In this document: positions 27,573 to 41,141 of the stretch, piece by piece | Numbering within the stretch: position 1 is the first letter of the stretch | Layout of the letters: every line of letters starts with the position of its first letter | Origin: Thermoplasmatota archaeon | GTDB lineage: Archaea; Thermoplasmatota; E2; DHVEG-1; B18-G2 | Direction of reading: 5' to 3' | Length of the DNA stretch: 41,141 nucleotides | NCBI GenBank assembly: GCA_029259115.1 | Contig: JAPDJO010000012.1 | Span: 1 to 41,141, forward strand | Made by a program: the position numbers and the translations under genes | The notes under the pieces: generated by a model | The model's input: the letters and a program-made list of their open reading frames with translations, nothing else | What the model was told of the DNA's origin: nothing | Databases searched by the model: none

Positions 27573-29027
27573 TTGAGGATCAGAGAACACCCTATTCTAG
27601 AGTTCAAGAGGGGGAAAAAGGTAAAATTCTATTTCAATGGAAGGGAAATTTATGGATATGAAAACGAGAGTATAGCCGCTGCTTTGGTTGCAAATGAAGT
27701 TTACAAATTTTCTACGAGTTTGAAATATGATAGACCCAGAGGTTTTTTCTGTGGCATAGGGAAGTGTGCATCCTGCAGAATGAGAGTAAATGGTATACCC
27801 AACGTAAGGACTTGTCTAGAAAAAGTTAGAGAAGGAATGAATGTAGAGATGCAGGATAAGGTTGCAGATCTTCCAGATGCAGATTTTATAGAAAAAAAGA
27901 TTGAGCACCTAGATTGTGACATTCTAGTAGTTGGAGGGGGACCAGCAGGACTATGCGCTGCCCTTGAATCTGCTAAATATGGAGTTAAAGTTATTCTCGT
28001 TGATGAAAACTACAGACTAGGTGGTCAGCTCATAAAACAGACTCACAAATTTTTTGGCTCGAAAGATGAAATGGCTGGAAAGAGGGGAATAGACATAGCA
28101 AAGGGGTTGGAAGATCTAATTAGGAAAAATAAGAACATAAAGGTTCTTTTGAGATCTACAGTCTTTGGATATTATGAAAGTAAGAAAAATCATCTCTTCG
28201 GAATAGCTGAAAGATTGGATGATCTCAGCGAAAAAATATACAAAGTGGAGTGTAAAAATGCAATCATAGCTACTGGAGCATCAGAAAATATGTTGGTATT
28301 CCCGAACAATGATCTTCCTGGCGTTTATGGAGCGGGCGGAGTGCAAACTTTGGTAAATGTTTATGGAGTTAAGCCTGGTGAAAAAGTTTTAATGGTCGGA
28401 TCTGGAAATGTTGGGCTGATAGTTTCCTATCAACTTTTACAGGCTGGTGTAGAGGTTAAAGGAGTGGTTGAGGCTTTGCCAAAGATAGGTGGTTATTTTG
28501 TTCATGCTGCAAAGTTGAGGAGGTTTGGCGTACCTATCTATGTATCTCATACCTTAAAAGAGGTGCATGGAAAGGATAAGGTTGAAGGAGCTACTATAGT
28601 TAAGTTGGATAAAAACTGGAATGAAATTCCTGGAACTGAAAAAAGAGTTGATTGTGATGTTGTTTGCTTAGCAGTAGGTCTATCTCCGTCCACAAGATTA
28701 GTATCTCAAACTGGAGCAGATATATCATATATACCCGAAGCCGGTGGATTTGTAGCCCTACATAATGATTACATGGAAACTTCTAAAGAGGGGATATTCG
28801 TAGCTGGAGATTTGTCTGGTATAGAAGAAGCATCTATAGCTATGATAGAGGGGAAGATAGCTGGGTTGGCTGCAGTCGAAAGATTGGGAGTGAAAATAGA
28901 CAAAAGTAAAATGAACAACTACCAAGAAAGACTTAAAGAACTCAGGGCTGGCCCATTTGGAGAGAGAGGAAGAAAGGCCAAGGAAAGAATTAAAGAAATG
29001 TGGAGGAGCAAGTATGGAGGATTATGA
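27573..29027 (+). CDS. Alpha subunit of a dye-linked amine/amino acid dehydrogenase (2Fe-2S + FAD)
   Basis: A 484-residue flavoprotein. The N-terminal about 100 residues form a [2Fe-2S] domain with C60-x4-C65-x2-C68-x12-C81. The rest is a pyridine-nucleotide-disulfide-type FAD fold: VVGGGPAGLCAALESAK (119-), a second dinucleotide motif VLMVGSGNVGLIVSYQ, and GIFVAGDLSGIEEASIAM near the end. This matches the alpha subunit of thermococcal dye-linked L-proline dehydrogenase and the sarcosine-oxidase-alpha/HcnB group. Start is TTG 27573 with GGGGGT six bases before and a TTTATAAG TATA box at 27532-27539. The ferredoxin gene overlaps its end by 14 bases. The true substrate (proline, sarcosine or another amino acid) cannot be read from sequence. 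Confidence 0.82.
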   Translation: MRIREHPILEFKRGKKVKFYFNGREIYGYENESIAAALVANEVYKFSTSLKYDRPRGFFCGIGKCASCRMRVNGIPNVRTCLEKVREGMNVEMQDKVADLPDADFIEKKIEHLDCDILVVGGGPAGLCAALESAKYGVKVILVDENYRLGGQLIKQTHKFFGSKDEMAGKRGIDIAKGLEDLIRKNKNIKVLLRSTVFGYYESKKNHLFGIAERLDDLSEKIYKVECKNAIIATGASENMLVFPNNDLPGVYGAGGVQTLVNVYGVKPGEKVLMVGSGNVGLIVSYQLLQAGVEVKGVVEALPKIGGYFVHAAKLRRFGVPIYVSHTLKEVHGKDKVEGATIVKLDKNWNEIPGTEKRVDCDVVCLAVGLSPSTRLVSQTGADISYIPEAGGFVALHNDYMETSKEGIFVAGDLSGIEEASIAMIEGKIAGLAAVERLGVKIDKSKMNNYQERLKELRAGPFGERGRKAKERIKEMWRSKYGGL

Positions 29028-29484
29028 GGTCTCTGGAGTGATAAGCAGAGATATGATAAAGATGCCAAGCGAAAAACATCTAAAGAGGGGAGTAGCTATC
29101 ATCGAATGCGTCCAAGAAATTCCCTGTAACCCATGTGTCGATGCATGCCCTTTCGGTGCCATATCTATGGAGGATTTGAATGCTCTTCCAAAAATAGACT
29201 ATGATAAATGCGTTGGTTGTGGAAGATGTGTATCTGTATGCCCGGGTTTGGCAATATTTTTGGTAAAAATAGAGGGAGAAAACGGCTTTGTAACTCTACC
29301 ATACGAGATGCTACCCATCCCAAAGGTTGGAGAAATTGTAAAAGTATTAGATAGGGAAGGCAGGGTGATTGGGGAAGGAGAAGTTGTAAAATTAAAAATT
29401 GAAAACAGAACAAGTATTGTAACTATCAAGATTGACAAGAGTTTGATTATGGATGCAAGAAACATAAGGATCGATCGAAAATGA
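29014..29484 (+). CDS. Ferredoxin-like gamma subunit, two 4Fe-4S clusters
   Basis: From ATG 29014 this encodes 156 residues; GGAGGAG ends five bases before it, which decides against an earlier in-frame ATG at 28957. Cysteines C38-x2-C41-x3-C45-P with C32 nearby, and C66-x2-C69-x2-C72-x3-C76-P, can hold two 4Fe-4S clusters for electron transfer. After residue 85 comes a small beta domain (PKVGEIVKVLDREGRVIGEGEVVKLKI). Its size fits the about 19-kDa gamma subunit of the thermococcal proline dehydrogenase complex. It overlaps the alpha-subunit gene, so it is translationally coupled; the next gene has its own promoter and is unrelated. Confidence 0.82.
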   Translation: MEDYEVSGVISRDMIKMPSEKHLKRGVAIIECVQEIPCNPCVDACPFGAISMEDLNALPKIDYDKCVGCGRCVSVCPGLAIFLVKIEGENGFVTLPYEMLPIPKVGEIVKVLDREGRVIGEGEVVKLKIENRTSIVTIKIDKSLIMDARNIRIDRK

Positions 29485-29520
29485 TTTATATCAACATTCA
29501 TATTTTGGATGGGGGATTAA

Positions 29521-31701
29521 ATGAGAAAATTGTTAGTTGGTATTGTAACAATGCTAGTGATTTTCTCAGTATCCAGTTCTTTCATATCAAGAGAGAGTGA
29601 TGCAAGGGGTAATTTTAAATTTCCTTTAAAGTGGAAAATCTGGAATTTCCATCCAACCATATTTAAGTTAATCTTGAACAAAATTTTCAAAAAATATGAG
29701 ATTGCAAATCGTCACAAAATTACTACCAAAACAAACCTAACTTCTACTAGCAATGGAAAAATCATAACAGTCGACGATGAGGGTGACGGAAACTTTACAT
29801 CCATACAAGATGCTGTGGATAACGCAAGCATAGGAGATACGATATTGATTTACAGTGGAACGTACCACGAGGAGGTAAAGATAAACAAAACTTTGTTAAT
29901 AATTGGTGTAGATCGGGAGTTAGGTTCAGGAAATGACATTGGTTATCCTGTAATAGATGGAGAGAAAGAATTAGAAACGGCTATAGAAATATCGAAAAAA
30001 GCAAGGGGTATAAGTATAGAAGGGCTAAAAATAACCGGGTACACTGGCAGAGGTATAGATTGCTCGGCTGATGAAGGGGTGTTTAGAAATTTATACATAG
30101 AGAATTGCGTTCACCCATGGCAGATGTTTGTAGCAAACGCGATTTGGTTAGGAGGAGATAATTGCATAGTAGAGAATTGCGTGTTCTATGCGAACGAAGG
30201 GGGAGTATTTGACGGTAGAAATTCGAAAGGGAATATAATAAGGAATTGTGAATTCAGAAGCACTTCTGAATTTGGATTAGATATCAAAGGAACGAACGAA
30301 AGGATCGAAAACAATCGCTTTATAGATGATAGAAGCATAATGATACGCGAGGGAACAGCATCCTGCATCGTTCTAGAAAACACTTTTGATAATAGCAGAT
30401 ACTCGGCTGTCTATGTATATGGTAAAAGTGATGGCACAAGAATCTCTGGAAATAAGATACGTGGCGGAAAAGTTGGAATACATTTGCAAATGTATAATGA
30501 GCCTTCAGACATAACGGTAGAGGAGAATCATATCTCCTCGACTCTAGATGCCGGTATCTATCTGAAGGATGTGAATGCCTCTGTTATTATAAGAAATAAT
30601 GTTATTTCTGAATGTAAAACAGGGATAGAGTTTGGAAGTTACAGTGATGAAGGATTTAACAATAGAAACATACAAATTTATGGAAATACGATTTTAGGCT
30701 GTAAGGAAGGAATTTCATTGAAAGGATGTGAAGGTATTAGCATTTTTGAAAATATGATCAAAAAGAATGACATAGGGATAACGTGCTCAGTTAGAACAAG
30801 ATGCAATAACATATATCACAATAATTTCATCGATAATGGTCTCAGCGCATACGATTTTTCTGGATCAAACAAATGGAACAAAAAATATCCTGAAGGTGGA
30901 AACTACTGGAGTGATTACTCTGGTAGAGATGAAGATGGTGATGGGATAGGAGATAAACCCTATAAAATCCCAACATCTGGAATTGATGAATATCCCTTTA
31001 TGGAAGCATATGGATGGGAGAACTTACCCCCTTCGGCACCAATGATAATAGGTCCTTCTTCTGGAAGGATCGGTGTTTATTATACCTACAACTTCTCATC
31101 CGAAGATCCTGAAAGTGGAGGTGTGTACTACTACATAGACTGGGGAGATGGTAGCTATATAGAATGGGAAGGGCCATTTCCCTCAGGAAAAGTAGTGAGA
31201 TTTTCCCATAAATGGGATCGGCAAGCAACGTACACCATAAGAGCAAAAGCTAGAGATGAACATGGCAAAGAAAGTAAATGGAGTACTTTGAAGGTGAGTG
31301 TACCTTATGTGGCTGAAAAGGCTAAGCCAACGGCAGTAGCAGAGGTCAGCAGGAGTAAGATAACAAGAGATGACTCAATAGTTACATTCATATCTGAAAA
31401 GAGTCATGATAACGATGAAGATGGAAAGGAGATCAAGTGGATAAGATGGGACTTCGATGGAGATGGTAAGTGGGATACTGGCTCAAGGATAACGAATTAC
31501 TGGATAAGATTTAGAGGAAATGAAAGAATTGCAGTAGATCTTTCCTATCTTTTTGATGATAATAATGATGGTCACGTTAACTCTCTAGCATCACATCAAA
31601 AGTCTGTCAGCTCAAAAACATACTTTGCTAAACTTGAGGTAAAGGATGATGAAGGAGATACAGATATTGACTATGTGAGTATAACTGTTGTGTACTCTTA
31701 A
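29521..31701 (+). CDS. Secreted right-handed beta-helix protein with PKD domains (NosD-like)
   Basis: This 726-residue protein begins with a Sec signal peptide (MRKLLVGIVTMLVIFSVSSS). Residues about 85-440 are a parallel beta helix of repeated N-N-x-I coils, opening ITVDDEGDGNFTSIQDAVDNA and closing with WNKKYPEGGNYWSDYSGRDE, the periplasmic NosD/CASH signature. Two PKD-type Ig domains follow (about 500-595, with IDWGDGSY; about 600-726, with WDFDGDGKWDTGS). Such proteins bind or cleave polysaccharide, or act as surface adhesins, and no catalytic residues are identifiable. No C-terminal anchor is present, so it is probably released or held by other surface proteins. It has its own TATA (TTTATAT near 29484) and splits the dehydrogenase operon. 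Confidence 0.85.
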   Translation: MRKLLVGIVTMLVIFSVSSSFISRESDARGNFKFPLKWKIWNFHPTIFKLILNKIFKKYEIANRHKITTKTNLTSTSNGKIITVDDEGDGNFTSIQDAVDNASIGDTILIYSGTYHEEVKINKTLLIIGVDRELGSGNDIGYPVIDGEKELETAIEISKKARGISIEGLKITGYTGRGIDCSADEGVFRNLYIENCVHPWQMFVANAIWLGGDNCIVENCVFYANEGGVFDGRNSKGNIIRNCEFRSTSEFGLDIKGTNERIENNRFIDDRSIMIREGTASCIVLENTFDNSRYSAVYVYGKSDGTRISGNKIRGGKVGIHLQMYNEPSDITVEENHISSTLDAGIYLKDVNASVIIRNNVISECKTGIEFGSYSDEGFNNRNIQIYGNTILGCKEGISLKGCEGISIFENMIKKNDIGITCSVRTRCNNIYHNNFIDNGLSAYDFSGSNKWNKKYPEGGNYWSDYSGRDEDGDGIGDKPYKIPTSGIDEYPFMEAYGWENLPPSAPMIIGPSSGRIGVYYTYNFSSEDPESGGVYYYIDWGDGSYIEWEGPFPSGKVVRFSHKWDRQATYTIRAKARDEHGKESKWSTLKVSVPYVAEKAKPTAVAEVSRSKITRDDSIVTFISEKSHDNDEDGKEIKWIRWDFDGDGKWDTGSRITNYWIRFRGNERIAVDLSYLFDDNNDGHVNSLASHQKSVSSKTYFAKLEVKDDEGDTDIDYVSITVVYS

Positions 31702-31782
31702 CAAAATTATTTCTTTAGAATTTCCTCAAAGTTTAAAATATTCTATATCATATCGAAGGGTGCAAATTCGAGGTGCATCTTT

Positions 31783-32049
31783 ATGATTAGAAAGATAGTT
31801 TGCAGATGCGAAGATATAGATGAGGAGGAGATAATAAAAGCTATAGAGGAAGGGTACACAGACTTTGAGGAACTGAGAAAGATTTTGAGGATAGGTATGG
31901 GACCCTGTCAGGGTAGAACATGTATTCCATTAGTGTTAAAAATCCTTGCCAAAAAGACCGGAAAAAAAGTTGAAGATTTGAATAAACCAAGTTTTAGACC
32001 GCCTGTTATTCCCATAACACTTGGTTCCCTATCGGGTGAAGATGAATGA
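31783..32049 (+). CDS. BFD-like [2Fe-2S] delta subunit
   Basis: This 88-residue protein has C7-x-C9 (VCRCED) and C42-x4-C47 (GPCQGRTC), the bacterioferritin-associated-ferredoxin-like [2Fe-2S] pattern. It matches the about 10-kDa delta subunit of archaeal dye-linked proline dehydrogenases and the same domain in NirB and sarcosine oxidase relatives. The end (PSFRPPVIPITLGSL) is typical of these small partners. GAGGTG lies shortly before the ATG, and a TATA-like TTTAAAATATT is about 45 bases upstream, so this half of the operon has its own promoter. The stop overlaps the next ATG (ATGAATGA), showing coupling to the beta subunit. Confidence 0.82.
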   Translation: MIRKIVCRCEDIDEEEIIKAIEEGYTDFEELRKILRIGMGPCQGRTCIPLVLKILAKKTGKKVEDLNKPSFRPPVIPITLGSLSGEDE

Positions 32050-33188
32050 AGTATGATGTTGTCATAATTGGTGGAGGTATAAATGGTTGTTCCCTAGCAT
32101 ATCAGTTATCCAAAAGAGGATTGAAAGCGGCTCTATTTGAAAGAGATTACATATGTTCTGGAGCTACAGGAAGATGCGGAGCGGGGATAAGACAACAGTG
32201 GAGTACGGAAGAGAATATAATCTTAGCTAGAGAGAGTGTAAAGATATTCAAGAATCTATCAAAGGAACTTGGAGAGGATATCGGATTTAGACAAGGTGGT
32301 TATCTTATAGCGGTACATGACAAAAAAGAGTTGAAAGATGCTGAAGAAAGAGTTGCTCTCCAGAAATCTCTAGGTGTAGATGTGAGGATCATAGATAAGG
32401 ATGAGATAAGGAGCATAGCTCCAATTTTAGATCCTGATGGTATGCGTGCAATAGCAGCAACATTCTGTCCAACCGATGGTCACGCAGATCCCTTCAAGAC
32501 AACCTTTGCCTATGTTAAATCTGCAAGGAAGCACGGCACAGATATATTTACCCATAGCGAGGTGAAAAAAATAGTTAAGGAGAGGAGTCGGGTGAAAGGT
32601 GTGATTGTTAATGATAAGAATATTAAGGCTGATTATGTCATAAATGCAGCTGGAGCCTGGTCTAAAAAGGTTGCGAAGCTTGCTGGTATAGAGATTCCGA
32701 ATACTCCATTGAGAAAAGAAGCTATAGTTACGGAGAGGCTAAAGAGAATTTTCGATTGCATGGTTATATCTTTCAAGGATGGAATTTACTTTAGCCAGCA
32801 AAACGAGGGGCAGATTCTTGGTGGAATACCTGGACCTGATGAAAGGACAGGTTACTTCTTTCAGCCAACCTTCTCGTTTTTACAGCACATGGCTAGAACT
32901 CTAACCAGATACGCTCCCGTGCTTAAACACATCAAAATACTAAGACATTGGACAGGGTTCTATGATGTATCTCCAGATGCGAGACCTATCATCGGTGAGG
33001 ATCCCAATGTTAAGGGATTTATCCATTGTCATGGGTTTAGTGGTCATGGCTTTATGCTTTCTCCGATGGTGACAAAGATTTTATCTGAATATATAGCTGA
33101 TGGAAAAGATTCTGAGTATCTTCACAGTTTGAGTATAGAGAGATTTAAAGGGAAGAAAATAAAGAAGGAAATATCTGTTGTTGGATAA
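32046..33188 (+). CDS. Beta subunit of the dehydrogenase, FAD amino acid oxidase (DAO) family
   Basis: This 380-residue flavoprotein begins KYDVVIIGGGINGCSLAYQL, the FAD-binding Rossmann motif, with SGATGRCGAGIRQQWS as the family's second FAD contact. RHWTGFYDVSPDARPIIGEDP and HCHGFSGHGFMLSPMV appear near the end, as in sarcosine oxidase beta and L-proline dehydrogenase beta chains. In the thermococcal complex this is the substrate-oxidising subunit that passes electrons on through the iron-sulfur partners. About 43 kDa, the usual size. The overlap with the BFD-like gene supports one functional complex. Proline is the best guess for substrate by family, but glycine betaine-derived amines or other imino acids are possible. 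Confidence 0.84.
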   Translation: MKYDVVIIGGGINGCSLAYQLSKRGLKAALFERDYICSGATGRCGAGIRQQWSTEENIILARESVKIFKNLSKELGEDIGFRQGGYLIAVHDKKELKDAEERVALQKSLGVDVRIIDKDEIRSIAPILDPDGMRAIAATFCPTDGHADPFKTTFAYVKSARKHGTDIFTHSEVKKIVKERSRVKGVIVNDKNIKADYVINAAGAWSKKVAKLAGIEIPNTPLRKEAIVTERLKRIFDCMVISFKDGIYFSQQNEGQILGGIPGPDERTGYFFQPTFSFLQHMARTLTRYAPVLKHIKILRHWTGFYDVSPDARPIIGEDPNVKGFIHCHGFSGHGFMLSPMVTKILSEYIADGKDSEYLHSLSIERFKGKKIKKEISVVG

Positions 33189-33221: not shown

Positions 33222-35090
33222 ATGAATTACCGAGATCTTGGATTCAAAGCTGGCTTAGAAATTCATCAACAGCTTGATACCAAAAAACTATTCTGCGATT
33301 GTCCATCCGAGTTATCAGAGGAATATGATTTTAAATTCGAAAGACTGTTAAGGCCTACGCAGAGTGAATTAGGAGAATTGGATAGGGCCGCTCTAGCTGA
33401 AGCTGAGAAAAAACGGAGATTTTTGTACTTCTCGTCCAAGAAGAGCAGCTGTCTCGTAGAGAGCGATGAAGAACCACCTCACGAAATGAATAGAGAGGCT
33501 TTGGAGATAGGACTAAAGGTAGCTTTGATGATGAAAGCTAGGATAGTTGACGAGATACAGGTTATGAGAAAGATAGTTATAGATGGCTCAAATACCTCGG
33601 GTTTTCAAAGAACAGCATTAATTGCCTTAAAAGGAAAGGTTAAGGATGTCGGTATTGAAACCATAGCCATAGAAGAGGATGCCGCAAGGAAGATTGAAGA
33701 AAGAGGAAATGTAGTTAGTTATGGCATAGACAGGTTAGGTATACCTCTGATAGAAGTTGCCACATCTGCTGAGCTTAGAGATCCAAAGCATGCAAAAGAG
33801 ATCGCTGAATACATAGGTTCTATATTCAAATCTGTAGGGAAATGTAAAAGGGTTTTGGGAGCTATAAGGCAGGACATAAATGTATCTATAAGAGATGGAG
33901 CAAGGGTTGAGATAAAAGGTGTGCAATATTTATCTGCAATAGAGCGAGTTGCAGAGAAGGAGGTTCTACGACAACTCGATCTTTTGGAAATAAAGAAGAT
34001 ATTGGAGGAGAGAGGAATAAGAAAGAAAGATATAGATAGAGAGGTTCTGAAAGACTTAACAGAAATAATGAAAGACTGTGAGTCTAAAATCATTAGAAAA
34101 GGAATAGAGGAAGGAAAGAAGGTTCTTGTCCTACGATTACCCGGATTTTCCGGACTTCTAAAAAGAGATTATTCCAGATTAGGGAGAGAGTTCGCCATCC
34201 ATGCCAGAATAAAATCTGGGATAAAAGGATTGATTCATAGTGATGAACTGCCTGGATACGGTATAGATGAAGATGATATCAAAAGAATGAAAGAGGTTTT
34301 GGATCTCGAGAAATATGATGCATTTGTTATCTTCGTGGGAGATACAAATGTTGTTGAAAAAGCTGTCACAGCAGTAAAGAACCGAGCTAAGCAGGCATTA
34401 GTAGGTGTACCAGAGGAAGTTAGAAGAGCCCTACCTGATGATTCTACAGAGTATATGAGACCCCTACCTGGATCGGCTAGAATGTATCCAGAGACCGATA
34501 TTCCTCCGATAAGGGTAACAAATGTCTACATCGAGAAATTAAAAAGAGAACTTCCTGAAGAACCTGAAAAGATGATAGAGAGAATAAGTAAAGAGTATGA
34601 ATTGAGTATCGAGCAAGCTAGGCAGTTGTTCAACTCTGGATATATTAAAGAGTTTGAAGAGTTAGCGAAGGAATTTCCACAGATAGCGAGCGTGGTAGCC
34701 AGAACTTTTCTGAACACGATTCCAGAGCTGGAAAGAGAAGGGTATGATGTAAGTTGGATAGATCAGAAGATCCTTTACGATTTATTTTCTAATTTGATGA
34801 GAGGGAAATTCGCGAAGGAGGCGATACCGGATATTTTGGCGTTTCTCTCAAAGAGTGAAAAGAAGGTTCTCGAGTTAGCTATAAAGAAGTTTGGAGGAGT
34901 AGACATAGAGGAAGTTAGAAAGTTTATAAAGAGAGTAGTGAGAGAAAAGAGAGAGTTTGTCAGAGAAAGAGGTATGTCTGCACTTGGGCCGCTGATGGGT
35001 GTGGTTATGAAGGAATTCAGAGGTAAAGTAGATGGGAAGGTGGTTAGCGAGATTCTGAAAGAAGAGATAGAAAAAGAAATATCTACCTAA
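33222..35090 (+). CDS. gatE: Glutamyl-tRNA(Gln) amidotransferase subunit E
   Basis: This 622-residue protein works with GatD to convert Glu-tRNA(Gln) to Gln-tRNA(Gln), the archaeal route to this tRNA. Seen are LGFKAGLEIHQQLDTKKLFCDCPSE, YFSSKKSSCLVESDEEPPHEMN, IDRLGIPLIEVATSAELRDP, and CKRVLGAIRQDINVSI, all GatB/GatE kinase-domain marks. A GAD-type insertion (about 280-400) is followed by the YqeY-like tail ending GPLMGVVMKEFRGKVDGK, which contacts tRNA. Length fits the family. GatD is not in the window. AATAAATCC about 25 bases upstream may be a leaderless promoter. The end overlaps a convergent gene by eight bases. Confidence 0.97.
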   Translation: MNYRDLGFKAGLEIHQQLDTKKLFCDCPSELSEEYDFKFERLLRPTQSELGELDRAALAEAEKKRRFLYFSSKKSSCLVESDEEPPHEMNREALEIGLKVALMMKARIVDEIQVMRKIVIDGSNTSGFQRTALIALKGKVKDVGIETIAIEEDAARKIEERGNVVSYGIDRLGIPLIEVATSAELRDPKHAKEIAEYIGSIFKSVGKCKRVLGAIRQDINVSIRDGARVEIKGVQYLSAIERVAEKEVLRQLDLLEIKKILEERGIRKKDIDREVLKDLTEIMKDCESKIIRKGIEEGKKVLVLRLPGFSGLLKRDYSRLGREFAIHARIKSGIKGLIHSDELPGYGIDEDDIKRMKEVLDLEKYDAFVIFVGDTNVVEKAVTAVKNRAKQALVGVPEEVRRALPDDSTEYMRPLPGSARMYPETDIPPIRVTNVYIEKLKRELPEEPEKMIERISKEYELSIEQARQLFNSGYIKEFEELAKEFPQIASVVARTFLNTIPELEREGYDVSWIDQKILYDLFSNLMRGKFAKEAIPDILAFLSKSEKKVLELAIKKFGGVDIEEVRKFIKRVVREKREFVRERGMSALGPLMGVVMKEFRGKVDGKVVSEILKEEIEKEIST

Positions 35091-35460
35091 TGTGAAACTC
35101 GAACCATTCGACTTTTTTATCCTTGATTAGTTTCTTTATCCTGTTTTGATCCTTTGATAGCTGGGATTTATTGGTTTTGAATTCAACAAATATGACTCTA
35201 TCTTTTTCAAACTGTATTCCATCTATAGGTGAGCCTATGAATCTAAAGTTTTCTGGAGAAAATGGATAGGATTTCATAAAGGGAGCAAACTGTTCTGTTA
35301 TTTTTCCATATGTAGTGGATAGAGATTGTCTCTGTTGTATGAGTTTTTCGATTTTTTCCCTCATTGAAGATATAACTGTTCGGTATACTAGTATAAGCCC
35401 TAGTACCAAACCAAAAATAATGCCTATCAGGAAAGTCCATATGTACACTAGTGGGTCCAT
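35083..35460 (-). CDS. Membrane-anchored endonuclease-like protein (COG4741 type)
   Basis: This 125-residue protein has one N-terminal membrane helix (YIWTFLIGIIFGLVLGLILVY) and a coiled-coil linker. A compact domain then carries RFIGSPIDGIQFEKDRVIFVEFKTNKSQLSKDQ; the D...EFK arrangement is the PD-(D/E)XK core of relatives of archaeal Holliday junction resolvase. The family is annotated as a predicted secreted or membrane endonuclease; its target is unknown. It overlaps the glycosyltransferase upstream by 13 bases, so they are co-transcribed, and it converges on gatE. Confidence 0.75.
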   Translation of the reverse strand: MDPLVYIWTFLIGIIFGLVLGLILVYRTVISSMREKIEKLIQQRQSLSTTYGKITEQFAPFMKSYPFSPENFRFIGSPIDGIQFEKDRVIFVEFKTNKSQLSKDQNRIKKLIKDKKVEWFEFHIR

Positions 35461-36146
35461 TTTAACCTCTTTTTAAATAGGAATTTAAGGTTTTTCCAGC
35501 CGTCCCTAAAGCTCTGTAACTTTGCTTTACCCTTTCTCACGTATAGGGTAGAGGGTATTTCTTTAGCTTTCACTTCTTTTGATTTGAACATCTCTATCTT
35601 TATCTCTTCACTAAATGGCATCCCATCGTCAAATTCCTCCAAAGGTTGTATTTTATCTAAGGCTTCTCTTCTGAATATCCACATTCCTGACTGTGAATCT
35701 CTTAGCCATATCTGGAATAGGATACACAGAGTGAGTGAAAGGATAAGATTTCCAAATCTATGCTTTACGGACATTGCTCCTCTTTCTAAGTTTGCAAATC
35801 TATTCGTTGTTATAAAATCAAGATTGTTTTTCAGAAGATATTCTATGTATTCGTGTATCTTATCGAATGGGTATGTTGCGTCGGCGTCTCCCGTAACTAT
35901 TATATCCCCTTTTACTTCTTTCAAGCCAGTTTTGTATGCTCTACCATAACCTTTTCTTGGCTCTATAATCACTCTTGCGCCTTTCTTCTTAGCTACATCT
36001 CTTGTCTTATCTGTAGAGTTCCCATCTACAACAAGGATTTCCAAATCCCAACCCTTTTTCTTGAAATAATCTCTGTTTATCATATCAAGTGTTTTACCTA
36101 TGCCGTCTTCCTCGTTTAGTGCTGGAATGACTATGCCTATCTTCAT
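35448..36146 (-). CDS. Family 2 glycosyltransferase, dolichyl-phosphate sugar synthase type
   Basis: This 232-residue GT2 enzyme opens MKIGIVIPALNEEDGIGKTL and has ILVVDGNSTDKT, the metal/nucleotide-binding GDADATYPF, NRFANLERGAMS and DSQSGMWIFRREAL. These are typical of enzymes that transfer hexose from a nucleotide sugar to dolichyl phosphate for protein N-glycosylation. It has no clear C-terminal membrane pair, only one hydrophobic stretch near residue 150. ATG 36146 is preferred over a GTG three codons earlier; a TTTAAAAA box about 26-33 bases upstream supports a leaderless start. It lies beside a surface protein with many Asn-x-Ser/Thr sites, a plausible acceptor. Confidence 0.85.
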   Translation of the reverse strand: MKIGIVIPALNEEDGIGKTLDMINRDYFKKKGWDLEILVVDGNSTDKTRDVAKKKGARVIIEPRKGYGRAYKTGLKEVKGDIIVTGDADATYPFDKIHEYIEYLLKNNLDFITTNRFANLERGAMSVKHRFGNLILSLTLCILFQIWLRDSQSGMWIFRREALDKIQPLEEFDDGMPFSEEIKIEMFKSKEVKAKEIPSTLYVRKGKAKLQSFRDGWKNLKFLFKKRLKWTH

Positions 36147-36227
36147 GTTACACACTGCACGAATTAGGTCTTTTTAAATATATCCAAAAAGAAAAACAAA
36201 AAATAGAGAAGTGGAGGCTTTGTTGTT

Positions 36228-39200
36228 TTAGTGTTGTCTCTTTCTCAGCAGTATGAATGCCACTCCAATTGCCGCTATCAGTGTTACTAGTTCGAATCCT
36301 GGTATTCCTCCTGGTTTTACTTTTATGTCTATTTGTGCTGACTTATATCCTTCTTTCTCTACAGTTACTGTATATGTTGTCTCCTTGCTTACTGTTGGTG
36401 CTGTCAGTGTTACTCCCTCAGGAGCAGTTACAGTTCCCTCAGCTATAAGTTCACCATCTTTTAGTATCTTGATATGCACACCGTATACTGCACCAGTATC
36501 AGAGGTTACTTTAACTTTGAACTTCTGACCAGATGTTAATGTTCCTTCTGGACTCACATATACATATAGTTGTGGTACATTTACAATTGTTATATCTTTC
36601 TGTGCTGTAGCATAACCGGCTTTCCTTGCAGTTATTGTATATGTTGCATATGGTAAGTTACCAAATACCGCACCAGTGAATGTTACCTCTCCGTTGCTAT
36701 CTGTTTCTTTTGTATTTCCTGCGAATTCGACTTGCACTCCTTCTACTGGTAAACCATTCTCGTCAGTTACCTTGACTGTAAACTCTTCATCTTCGTAAGC
36801 CTGATCTGGTGCCTCGATCTTGAGCTGATATGATGTTATCTCAATCTTTGTATCTACCGGTCTTTCTTCTACGTAGATGTCTATGTATCCTGTCGCTGTA
36901 GGTACAAACGCAAACAACGCTATTCCATCACTTCCTGTTGTGCTATTGAGTTCTAGGTTACCTGGTCCCTTTAAGGTGATGTTTACACCTTCAAGTGGTT
37001 CGCCTCTACCAGTCGCTTTCACTTTTACTTTGGTAGGCTCGTTAAGTGCGATTATATCTGGTGTCGGCTCTACGTGTGGGACAGTTACTACTAGCACTCC
37101 TGTGGCATTTGCAAAGTCAGCACCGTCTTCTGGTTTATATTTGAAGGTGATTTTCATCTCACTCCTATCTGCTGATAAGTTGGATGCAGTTATGTTGTAA
37201 ATAGTTATCATGCCGTTTTCTAGGGTAACCTCAAGATAAGCATTCGGATCTGCTGTAGAGTTGACCCATGTCTTGTTGTATGTTCCTGCATCGGTTATGT
37301 TGTATATCCTAAGTGTACCGTTTCCAACGGTCGCGCCCTGCCATTTTACAGTAAATGTTGCCGTTATATTATTGTCGTATTTCCAGATTAATTCCTCCAA
37401 ATCGCAACTTACCTCTACCGGTACGACCTCAAAGGTTGCGTTGAATCCTTCGCTGTTATTAGAGTTGTTGTATGCGTATATCGTGTAAATTCCTGGTTCT
37501 AACGCATATACATTTGTAAGTTCAATGGATGCATCACCATCTAATGGTGACCATCCCCAGCCAGTAAACATGCTTGTCACATCTGCTCCCGTCTCATTGT
37601 ATATCTTGACGTGAAGACCAGAATCCTCAGGTGTTCCGGTCTTGTTTCCAGTTGTCGGATCTACGGTGCTGATATTTATCCATAAATCATAATATTTGCC
37701 TGCCATCAGCGTATTTTTGGAAATTTCTACTTTTAGATCGCTCTTTGGTTTCATTGTTGCAGCTGCATATCCATAGCCAACGTTTGCTAAGGATACGTAT
37801 GCAGCTATGTATCTCGGTGCCTTTATCTCAGTCCATACATTGGTCTGATCATCGGTCTGTTGTGTCACGTTAAAGAGGAATGTGTATTCTCCGGCTGTTG
37901 TTCCACCACCGCTTGTTTCATTTATCTTATAAGCTAAGTCACCTGAGTCATCTACATAGTAAAGAGCAACATATGCATTTGGATATGGATAACCGTTTGC
38001 GTCAGTTACCTTCACGGTTATTGTGACGTTCTCTCCTATCATAAATTCTGTTGGAGAGATGGTTACTACAGTTCCGTTAAGTTGGGATCCTCCTATCAGT
38101 ATAGTATCCTCTGCGGTTCCCCAATCACCCCAGTCTACGCTTATCTTTAGTTCTCCACCATTGAGATCCATTGTTGGGGTAAGTTTAACTGTCCAATTAT
38201 GATCACTGTAGTCCACTACATTAGTAAACATATTGCTGTATTCGTAGAGAGTTTTTCCATCTTCGCCAATGAAGAGGGCATCTCCAGTTAGTGTTATGTT
38301 TTTCTTAGCCTCCTCTACATCACCCTCTCCAAGGTATTCATGATTTCTATTAATGACTTGGAATTTGATCTCTATAGGCTGATTAGCTTCACTTGGTATC
38401 TCTTTTATCTCCTTGTCCTCTGGGCTGATTATCTTTATTTGGATACTGGGTGCTTTTGTAACTACGAATGTAGCACTACCATTCCACTCCTCTACACCAT
38501 CACTGTCTTTATCGTAGCTCACCACTACACGCCATGTTCCATTGATACCCCAAACATATCCATTGCTGTCTCGTCCCCAATTGTCACAATATATTCTGAT
38601 CACACCAGGTTGTGATTGATCTATGTTTGTAATATTTGATGTAACATCTTCCTTCTTACTGTTATAGACTTTGACTGTGAAAAGGCTTGATGTCAGATTT
38701 TCTCCGTCATATCCCTTTATGTAAACTTTTACCTCTCCAGAGAAGTTCCAGTACATTGTTTTGTTTGTCTCAGGTATCTCCAACTGAGGTTCACCAGTAT
38801 TAACAATTATCTTTGCAACCTCTGATATTTTCTCTGGTGGATCCCATGGACCACAGATTGAAGAGTAATTGTCATTTGCATTACTTATGCTTGGATTCGA
38901 GTAGCCATAGTATTCAGTGTAACCTTCCGTTCCATATCCTATCTCTGTTGGATCTATATCTCTGTAGACGAATACGGTGTAGTTACCAGCATACGTTAAA
39001 TTGTGGAGCCAATCTGAATTGAATGTTACGACTCCATCTCCAGCCCACTTGTGGAACACTAAAGAATTATTAGATTCTTTTCTAACATCTACCCAAGCCT
39101 CTGCTGCGCTTCCATCTTCTGTTACAGTTATTGTTATCGTTTCATTTTTACCATAGTAGAGTTCAGTCGTTGATATGTCGACATCAAATGCTTCTGTTCC

Positions 39201-41141
39201 GTTCACCCAGAAGTATGCAAAGTCACTGTCACTACCTTCTGCAGCATCTGTTGGATCAGCATCATTGTCCAATATCCACATACCGGATATATTGAAATAG
39301 ATGTTGTCTTGGAAGCTTTCTACATTTCCGTTGGCCTCTATAGATGCTTTTTCTCCCCCTATCTTGTAAGGTTTCCACTCAATGTAGTAATAGTAAGTTC
39401 CTCCACTTTCCACTCTCTTATAGTACGGGTAATAGAGATGATAAGTTTCTTCATCTGTCAGAGTGGATGTGTTAACTCTTAGGTCTACCGTTGCACCATA
39501 CTTTATGTCCTTTGTATCGGTAGCAATAACATCAACTGCACCATCTTCGGTTCCCTCAAAGAAATCTACACCCAGTTTACCTATCTCCAATGAATTACTG
39601 TTGATAAGGTCAGAGGATGGCGGATCTGGCGTGGAAGCCAATGTTATACCTCCTGTAGGTATCTTGAACTGCAATGTTGCACCTTGGGTAGCTACACCAG
39701 AAATATCGACAACAATGTAGAAGGTTTTGCTTTCGTTCCAGAGTGGAACAGATGAGAAAACATTGCTCCACCAGGAGTTACCTGCATTCCATATCAGATC
39801 TGCCAGTTTTGTGTCCTCATCTGCTTGGAAACCTGATGTGTCACCACTCTCTTCATATATAGCGACATTGGATATATCACTGTCGGTTGCTGTTCCCTCA
39901 TTTTGAACGACTATACCTGAGAAGGCATCGCCATACGCGTCGTTATCATCCTGTTCATACACTATCATATCAGCCGTCTCGTCCCAGTCACCACCATCAT
40001 CGTTTCCATCATAAGATTTGAGGTTCCAATCGCTATCAAAGCCAGCTGACCCATCTGTACCGTCTGATGGAATTGCTCCATCAATCACTTGGTCTGGTTC
40101 TGCTGAGTATGTCCCACCATCGTGGTAGTCCTTAATTATTGCATCGTGATCTTGATCCCAAGCACCCCCCTCTTCAGCATCGTATGAGTAGAAGCCCCAG
40201 TCTGCATCGAAGCCAGCATCTGATTCTGCACCATCATCTGGCGTTTTACCAGCAATAACTTGGTCTGCCTCAGCCGAGTAAGTTCCACCATCGTGGTAGT
40301 CAATAAATATGTCCTCTCCATCGTCATACTCGTTGGCTGTGCCGCCAGCGTCATAGAATGCAAGGTTGTCATCCGCATCAAATGCCTTCAACTCGGTGTT
40401 ATCGTCTGTAAATCCAGATGCGTAATCATTTGGATCATAAATTACGATATCGTCTCCTGCGGTACCATCTTCGTCTCCGTCGGTTGTGCCGTCCGCATCA
40501 TAAACTGTGGTGCCGTCATCGTCATTTGGATCGTAAACGATTGTCTCTCCTTCATCCCACTGATCGTTACCATTTTGATCGTAGTAGTAGAGTGCACCAT
40601 CATCATCATTATCGTATAATGTTTCTAATCCGATTAACGCATCGCCAGCCGATTCACCATCATTCGCTGATCCAGAACCAGTGGTGGTGGAGCCATCACC
40701 GTCAACGAGTGTATCGGCCTGAGCAGTAAACTTGGTGTCTGAATCTTTATCTACGAAGATTGTATCAGCGCTTGCATCCCAAGCACCACCATCACTTGCA
40801 TCGATTGAGCGCATGTTCCAATCTGCATCTGCTCCTGGTGCAATTGTGGTTCCAGCTGGTGGAGCTGTACCTGCTATTAGATCATCAGCCTGTGCTGTGA
40901 ATTTACCGTCACTATCCTTATCCCAGAATATAGTGTCAACAGAATTGTCATAAGGACCTCCGTCATCAACAGCATCTATTGAGTAGAGTTTCCAATCACC
41001 ATCGCATCCGTCAATATGAGGGCAAGCGACTTGGGGCTCAAGTCCTGAGAGGTCGTAAACCCTTTCTTCCTTGTACTCTGCATCCGGGTCGCTTCGAACC
41101 TCCTCGAATGGCATCCTCGCCCTCCCCCTCAAGTATCTCCT
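36228..41141 (-). CDS. Giant PGF-CTERM surface glycoprotein (5' end at window edge, chimeric-looking)
   Basis: The frame runs 1637 codons from the window edge to its stop at 36228. In order: a LeuC-like stretch (first about 42 residues, see separate entry), Asp-rich repeats (to about residue 405 counting from a TTG at 41132), a long run of Ig-like beta domains with many Asn-x-Ser/Thr sites, and two carboxypeptidase-regulatory-like domains (GEPLEGVNITLKGPG; GLPVEGVQVEFAGNTKETDSNG). The tail is PGGIPGFELVTLIAAIGVAFILLRKRQH split as spacer, PGF, membrane helix and basic end. PGF-CTERM tails are cut and lipid-anchored by archaeosortase A. An S-layer or major sheath role is likely. No signal peptide is present in the visible N-terminus, which is abnormal for this class. 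Confidence 0.85.
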   Translation of the reverse strand, partial: RRYLRGRARMPFEEVRSDPDAEYKEERVYDLSGLEPQVACPHIDGCDGDWKLYSIDAVDDGGPYDNSVDTIFWDKDSDGKFTAQADDLIAGTAPPAGTTIAPGADADWNMRSIDASDGGAWDASADTIFVDKDSDTKFTAQADTLVDGDGSTTTGSGSANDGESAGDALIGLETLYDNDDDGALYYYDQNGNDQWDEGETIVYDPNDDDGTTVYDADGTTDGDEDGTAGDDIVIYDPNDYASGFTDDNTELKAFDADDNLAFYDAGGTANEYDDGEDIFIDYHDGGTYSAEADQVIAGKTPDDGAESDAGFDADWGFYSYDAEEGGAWDQDHDAIIKDYHDGGTYSAEPDQVIDGAIPSDGTDGSAGFDSDWNLKSYDGNDDGGDWDETADMIVYEQDDNDAYGDAFSGIVVQNEGTATDSDISNVAIYEESGDTSGFQADEDTKLADLIWNAGNSWWSNVFSSVPLWNESKTFYIVVDISGVATQGATLQFKIPTGGITLASTPDPPSSDLINSNSLEIGKLGVDFFEGTEDGAVDVIATDTKDIKYGATVDLRVNTSTLTDEETYHLYYPYYKRVESGGTYYYYIEWKPYKIGGEKASIEANGNVESFQDNIYFNISGMWILDNDADPTDAAEGSDSDFAYFWVNGTEAFDVDISTTELYYGKNETITITVTEDGSAAEAWVDVRKESNNSLVFHKWAGDGVVTFNSDWLHNLTYAGNYTVFVYRDIDPTEIGYGTEGYTEYYGYSNPSISNANDNYSSICGPWDPPEKISEVAKIIVNTGEPQLEIPETNKTMYWNFSGEVKVYIKGYDGENLTSSLFTVKVYNSKKEDVTSNITNIDQSQPGVIRIYCDNWGRDSNGYVWGINGTWRVVVSYDKDSDGVEEWNGSATFVVTKAPSIQIKIISPEDKEIKEIPSEANQPIEIKFQVINRNHEYLGEGDVEEAKKNITLTGDALFIGEDGKTLYEYSNMFTNVVDYSDHNWTVKLTPTMDLNGGELKISVDWGDWGTAEDTILIGGSQLNGTVVTISPTEFMIGENVTITVKVTDANGYPYPNAYVALYYVDDSGDLAYKINETSGGGTTAGEYTFLFNVTQQTDDQTNVWTEIKAPRYIAAYVSLANVGYGYAAATMKPKSDLKVEISKNTLMAGKYYDLWINISTVDPTTGNKTGTPEDSGLHVKIYNETGADVTSMFTGWGWSPLDGDASIELTNVYALEPGIYTIYAYNNSNNSEGFNATFEVVPVEVSCDLEELIWKYDNNITATFTVKWQGATVGNGTLRIYNITDAGTYNKTWVNSTADPNAYLEVTLENGMITIYNITASNLSADRSEMKITFKYKPEDGADFANATGVLVVTVPHVEPTPDIIALNEPTKVKVKATGRGEPLEGVNITLKGPGNLELNSTTGSDGIALFAFVPTATGYIDIYVEERPVDTKIEITSYQLKIEAPDQAYEDEEFTVKVTDENGLPVEGVQVEFAGNTKETDSNGEVTFTGAVFGNLPYATYTITARKAGYATAQKDITIVNVPQLYVYVSPEGTLTSGQKFKVKVTSDTGAVYGVHIKILKDGELIAEGTVTAPEGVTLTAPTVSKETTYTVTVEKEGYKSAQIDIKVKPGGIPGFELVTLIAAIGVAFILLRKRQH
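39918..41012 (-). repeat. Asp-rich tandem protein repeats, about 57-58 residues each
   Basis: Units share D-x-DW-xx-xSxDAxxxGG, then D-x-I-xxDxxDGx-(F/Y)-xAxxDxxIxG. Conserved Trp residues fall at about positions 47, 105, 312 and 369 (counting from the TTG at 41132), giving periods of 58 and 57 residues, with degenerate units between. At DNA level, CCACCATCGTGGTAGTC recurs at 40114-40130 and 40285-40301, exactly 171 bases apart. The region has very few Lys or Arg. The D-x-D-x-DG loops resemble calcium-binding turns. Confidence 0.8.
41016..41141 (-). pseudogene. Fragment of a LeuC/homoaconitase large subunit fused in frame
   Basis: The first 42 codons from the window edge read RRYLRGRARMPFEEVRSDPD followed by AEYKEERVYDLSGLEPQVACPH. 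The 'YLxxR...SDxDAEY...DxSxLEPQVACPH' pattern is characteristic of the C-terminal half of the isopropylmalate/homoaconitate hydratase large subunit, where VDNV would follow. Here it passes straight into the Asp-rich repeats. A hand count gives 71 G+C of 126 (56%), clearly above the surrounding DNA. It is either an assembly join or a recombined gene fragment. Confidence 0.7.

Follow-up and report, generated by a model that had tools for sequence, protein, structure and literature searches.

The in-frame junction between a LeuC fragment and a surface protein at the end of the window (the whole stretch of DNA analyzed, 41,141 nt) is almost certainly an assembly artefact and not a real gene fusion. 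The window was the whole of contig C13 of bin G000 (G000:C13:1-41141), so that the LeuC piece formed the extreme contig tip. The preliminary description had favored a chimeric assembly at a contig end, and this reading was strongly supported by a 127-nt tip equal in length to the assembly k-mer, by the foreign composition and affinity of that tip, and by the signal-like N terminus of a homolog of the surface protein, L194. The features concerned are the following.

36228..41014, minus strand: 5'-truncated host surface protein (open reading frame, Pfam domains, Loki-CTERM, homologs in the same taxonomic order, gatE neighbor)
41014..41015, no strand: junction, almost certainly a chimeric breakpoint (drop in DNA identity to the LeuC gene L043)
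41015..41141, minus strand: foreign tip, an in-frame piece of an aconitase-family leuC gene (NCBIfam, tblastn, GC3, k-length match)

The reading frame and its outer codons

The frame of the surface protein ran on the minus strand from 41141 to 36228 without a stop codon (1637 codons) and was open at the contig edge, and it thus continued unbroken into the 42 LeuC-like residues, as had been described. These outermost 42 codons, RRYLRGRARMPFEEVRSDPDAEYKEERVYDLSGLEPQVACPH, matched LeuC/HacA-family profiles of NCBIfam (PRK00402, E value of 1.7e-7; hacA_fam, 7.1e-7) and two solved isopropylmalate/citramalate isomerase large subunits (E value of 0.006), and the match to the Pfam Aconitase family was weak (E value of 0.008, under the Pfam cut-off). 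The assignment of the 42 residues to the aconitase-family LeuC/HacA proteins, originally made from the sequence alone, was therefore confirmed by profile and structure matches. Their placement had to be revised: the segment had been called C-terminal, but it aligned to profile positions 231-274 of 412-415, in the middle of the protein. The fragment scored 30 bits against a curated cut-off of 385 for full-length LeuC/HacA proteins, and it covered 42 of about 415 residues.

The host surface protein and its neighborhood

The remainder of the frame encoded carboxypeptidase-regulatory and Ig-like domains (Pfam) together with Asp-rich repeats, and it ended in a C-terminal sorting signal that scored above the curated cut-off for Loki-CTERM (NF033507, 23.6 versus 19.9 bits). 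The protein had been labeled a PGF-CTERM protein, but PGF-CTERM was absent among the matches. In its domains, its C-terminal signal, and its homologs in the same taxonomic order, the protein resembled archaeal Loki-CTERM-type surface proteins with Ig-like domains and Asp-rich repeats, from which it differed in that the 5' end was absent and foreign sequence stood there instead. The N-terminal export signal that a Loki-CTERM surface protein should have was accordingly lacking, the LeuC fragment being in the place of the 5' end.

The nearest readable homolog, L194, belonged to the same family and covered part of the Asp-rich half. It started with MKVDVKNRLLSTSIAILMLTSGLVMLANTRGA..., a signal-like segment, with similar Asp-rich repeats after it. 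All five homologs with readable starts (L194-L198, same order) opened with signal-like segments, as judged by eye, and no LeuC sequence was found in any of these five N-terminal regions. The surface gene is native to the host, and its true 5' end is missing from the contig. The Asp-rich repeats (roughly DWxxxSxDxxxGGxWDxxxDxI) were located at 39968-41003 of the window and near the N terminus of L194, and they are possibly metal binding in both proteins.

The stretch 33222-41014 held gatE (33222-35090), a Holliday-junction-resolvase-related endonuclease gene, a family-2 glycosyltransferase gene, and the surface-protein gene together. In the congener G002, gatE and the tail of a homologous surface protein shared one contig (C86), as in the window; that contig also terminated inside the surface protein. 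Elsewhere in the window, at 27573-33188, redox genes lay on one strand and encoded a Fer2_4/Pyr_redox_2 protein, a 4Fe-4S protein, a BFD-like [2Fe-2S] protein, and a DAO-family FAD oxidoreductase; this run, which was interrupted at 29521-31701 by a NosD/beta-helix protein, recalls a multi-subunit sarcosine-oxidase-like dehydrogenase.

Foreign origin and extent of the tip

Relatives of the fragment were sought with a 50-residue tblastn query among 84,980 bacterial and archaeal species, each represented by one genome. Two Hadesarchaea metagenome-assembled genomes supplied the most similar LeuC proteins, at 71 and 74% identity, and the ungapped identities to these two proteins were 30/42 and 29/42; the best-scoring match by E value inside the host's own class was 51% identical to the fragment. 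The tip thus resembled the Hadesarchaea branch of the LeuC/HacA large subunits (aconitase superfamily) throughout its 42 residues (71-74% identity) and differed from them in holding merely about a tenth of the protein. Its DNA was found neither elsewhere in the bin (with 35 contigs of <3 kb read as N) nor in the four family-mates searched.

The composition of the tip was foreign as well. Its GC content was 56.3%, in agreement with the 56% counted by hand in the preliminary description, and the two Hadesarchaea LeuC genes lay on stretches of 56-65% GC. Against a reference of 8,966 overlapping, codon-phased windows of the same size from the contig's own genes, the GC content of 0.563 was reached by 1 window and the GC3 of 0.619 by none (mean of 0.34, standard deviation of 0.07). 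Together, the Hadesarchaea affinity, the outlying GC3, and the poor match to the LeuC genes of bin and genus place the tip in an organism other than that of the rest of the contig.

These comparisons also bear on whether the host's own LeuC might have been joined to the surface gene by misassembly or rearrangement within the genome. In favor of such an origin, genus-mates have two LeuC/HacA-type genes, whereas the bin yielded only a single full copy and, apart from it, an aconitase-type gene. However, the fragment shared 15/42 residues with the bin's own LeuC-family genes and 18-19/42 with those of the genus-mates (the genus-mates' copies, on inspection, resembled each other far more), and its GC3 was beyond the range of the contig's genes; a host origin of the fragment is very unlikely.

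Counted in whole codons, the LeuC similarity took up the terminal 126 nt of the contig; the next base, number 127, was an A, as was the base after the ACPH/ACPP motif in both closest leuC genes (AGC in L043 and AGG in L044). The DNA identity to L043 was 86/127 through base 127 and 4/33 past it, and for L044 the two values were 85/127 and 5/33. With L043 as the reference, the change in identity was best placed 127 bases from the contig end, with positions 122-130 nearly tied across the two genes. By these sequence comparisons the length of the foreign piece equals one k-mer, give or take a few bases when judged from similarity only and one base when judged from the codons. An abrupt switch had been reported at HIDGCDGDW; the switch itself was upheld, but its position moved to about 41014/41015, directly after ...QVACPH. 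The junction sat in the linker preceding a repeat (IDGCDGDW here, compared with DGEATDW in L194). A 20-nt pattern spanning the junction had no occurrence in viral contigs.

The assembly k-mer and the origin of the junction

The bin consisted of 94 contigs (1.4 Mb) with an estimated contamination of 5.5%. Exact overlaps were sought among its 118 readable contig ends, with C60-C94 (35 contigs of <3 kb, read as N) left out, and only four were found (C33L/C7R, C14R/C33R, C23R/C25R, and C20L/C23L), each of exactly 127 nt. End overlaps of exactly k are typical of assemblers that work on k-mer graphs and arise at branching nodes, so the final assembly k was 127; the foreign stretch measured 126-127 nt. 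Through these overlaps, contigs C7-C33-C14 and C25-C23-C20 can probably be joined. Contigs from metaSPAdes and MEGAHIT bear end sequences of maxK length where the graph branches (PMC10914622). The tip resembled such de Bruijn graph contig ends and chimeric joins in that the terminal stretch equaled k, other contigs of the bin overlapped by exactly k, and the tip came from another source; it differed from them in that the junction chanced to be in frame and so resembled a fusion protein.

Outlying GC content at contig ends was also considered as a general sign of chimeras, and this idea was not borne out. The right end of contig C6 (L186:2776-2896) carried a complete 5S rRNA gene that was exactly terminal (65% GC, versus 37% in the adjoining DNA), and no chimera was demonstrated at the other ends inspected.

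The junction almost certainly arose as follows. The contig breaks within the Asp-rich repeat region of the host surface-protein gene, and we infer that in the k = 127 de Bruijn graph this region was tied to a leuC vertex by a spurious edge or by a chimeric read. The last k-mer (127 nt) almost certainly derives from leuC of another, co-sampled, higher-GC archaeon resembling the Hadesarchaea, and the contig stops at the branching vertex and carries exactly one leuC k-mer; a tip of one k-mer is expected if a chimeric or branching edge ends a contig at the vertex of the other organism's leuC. The open frame is put down to luck: strand and frame agree by chance about once in 6 joins of this kind, and therefore no special explanation is required. 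Another cause of the break, an exact repeat of at least k bases in the sequenced part, was ruled out, with repeats near the junction just 61-78% alike.

The k-length tip marks the junction as a branch of the graph, and a recombinant sharing at least 127 identical bases with a co-sampled genome gives the same tip. The preliminary description had raised such an event, a gene capture, as its exciting alternative: a leuC fragment from a Hadesarchaea-like donor would have entered the surface-protein gene toward its 5' end, with the contig ending because the 127-mer recurs in the donor leuC. The frame open through the junction and the resemblance to Hadesarchaea LeuC fit this account; however, it requires those 127 or more bases to be identical to a co-sampled donor, it would put a fragment of a cytosolic enzyme at the expected site of the export signal, and the fragment ends in the middle of a domain. 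The homologs L194-L198, with starts that looked signal-like by eye and without LeuC, likewise speak against it, and the capture account as a whole gained no support. Capture of the fragment is thus extremely unlikely, and one can scarcely credit that a genuine recombination between distant archaea gave the surface gene a 5' end taken from leuC, possibly with leuC expression signals.

Read as an assembly artefact, the in-frame junction teaches no new biology, and it offers a clean example for recognizing a false fusion gene, the hallmark of which is a foreign in-frame tip as long as the assembler's k-mer. Any fusion protein predicted at the end of a metagenome contig should be checked for a k-length tip before it is reported or deposited.
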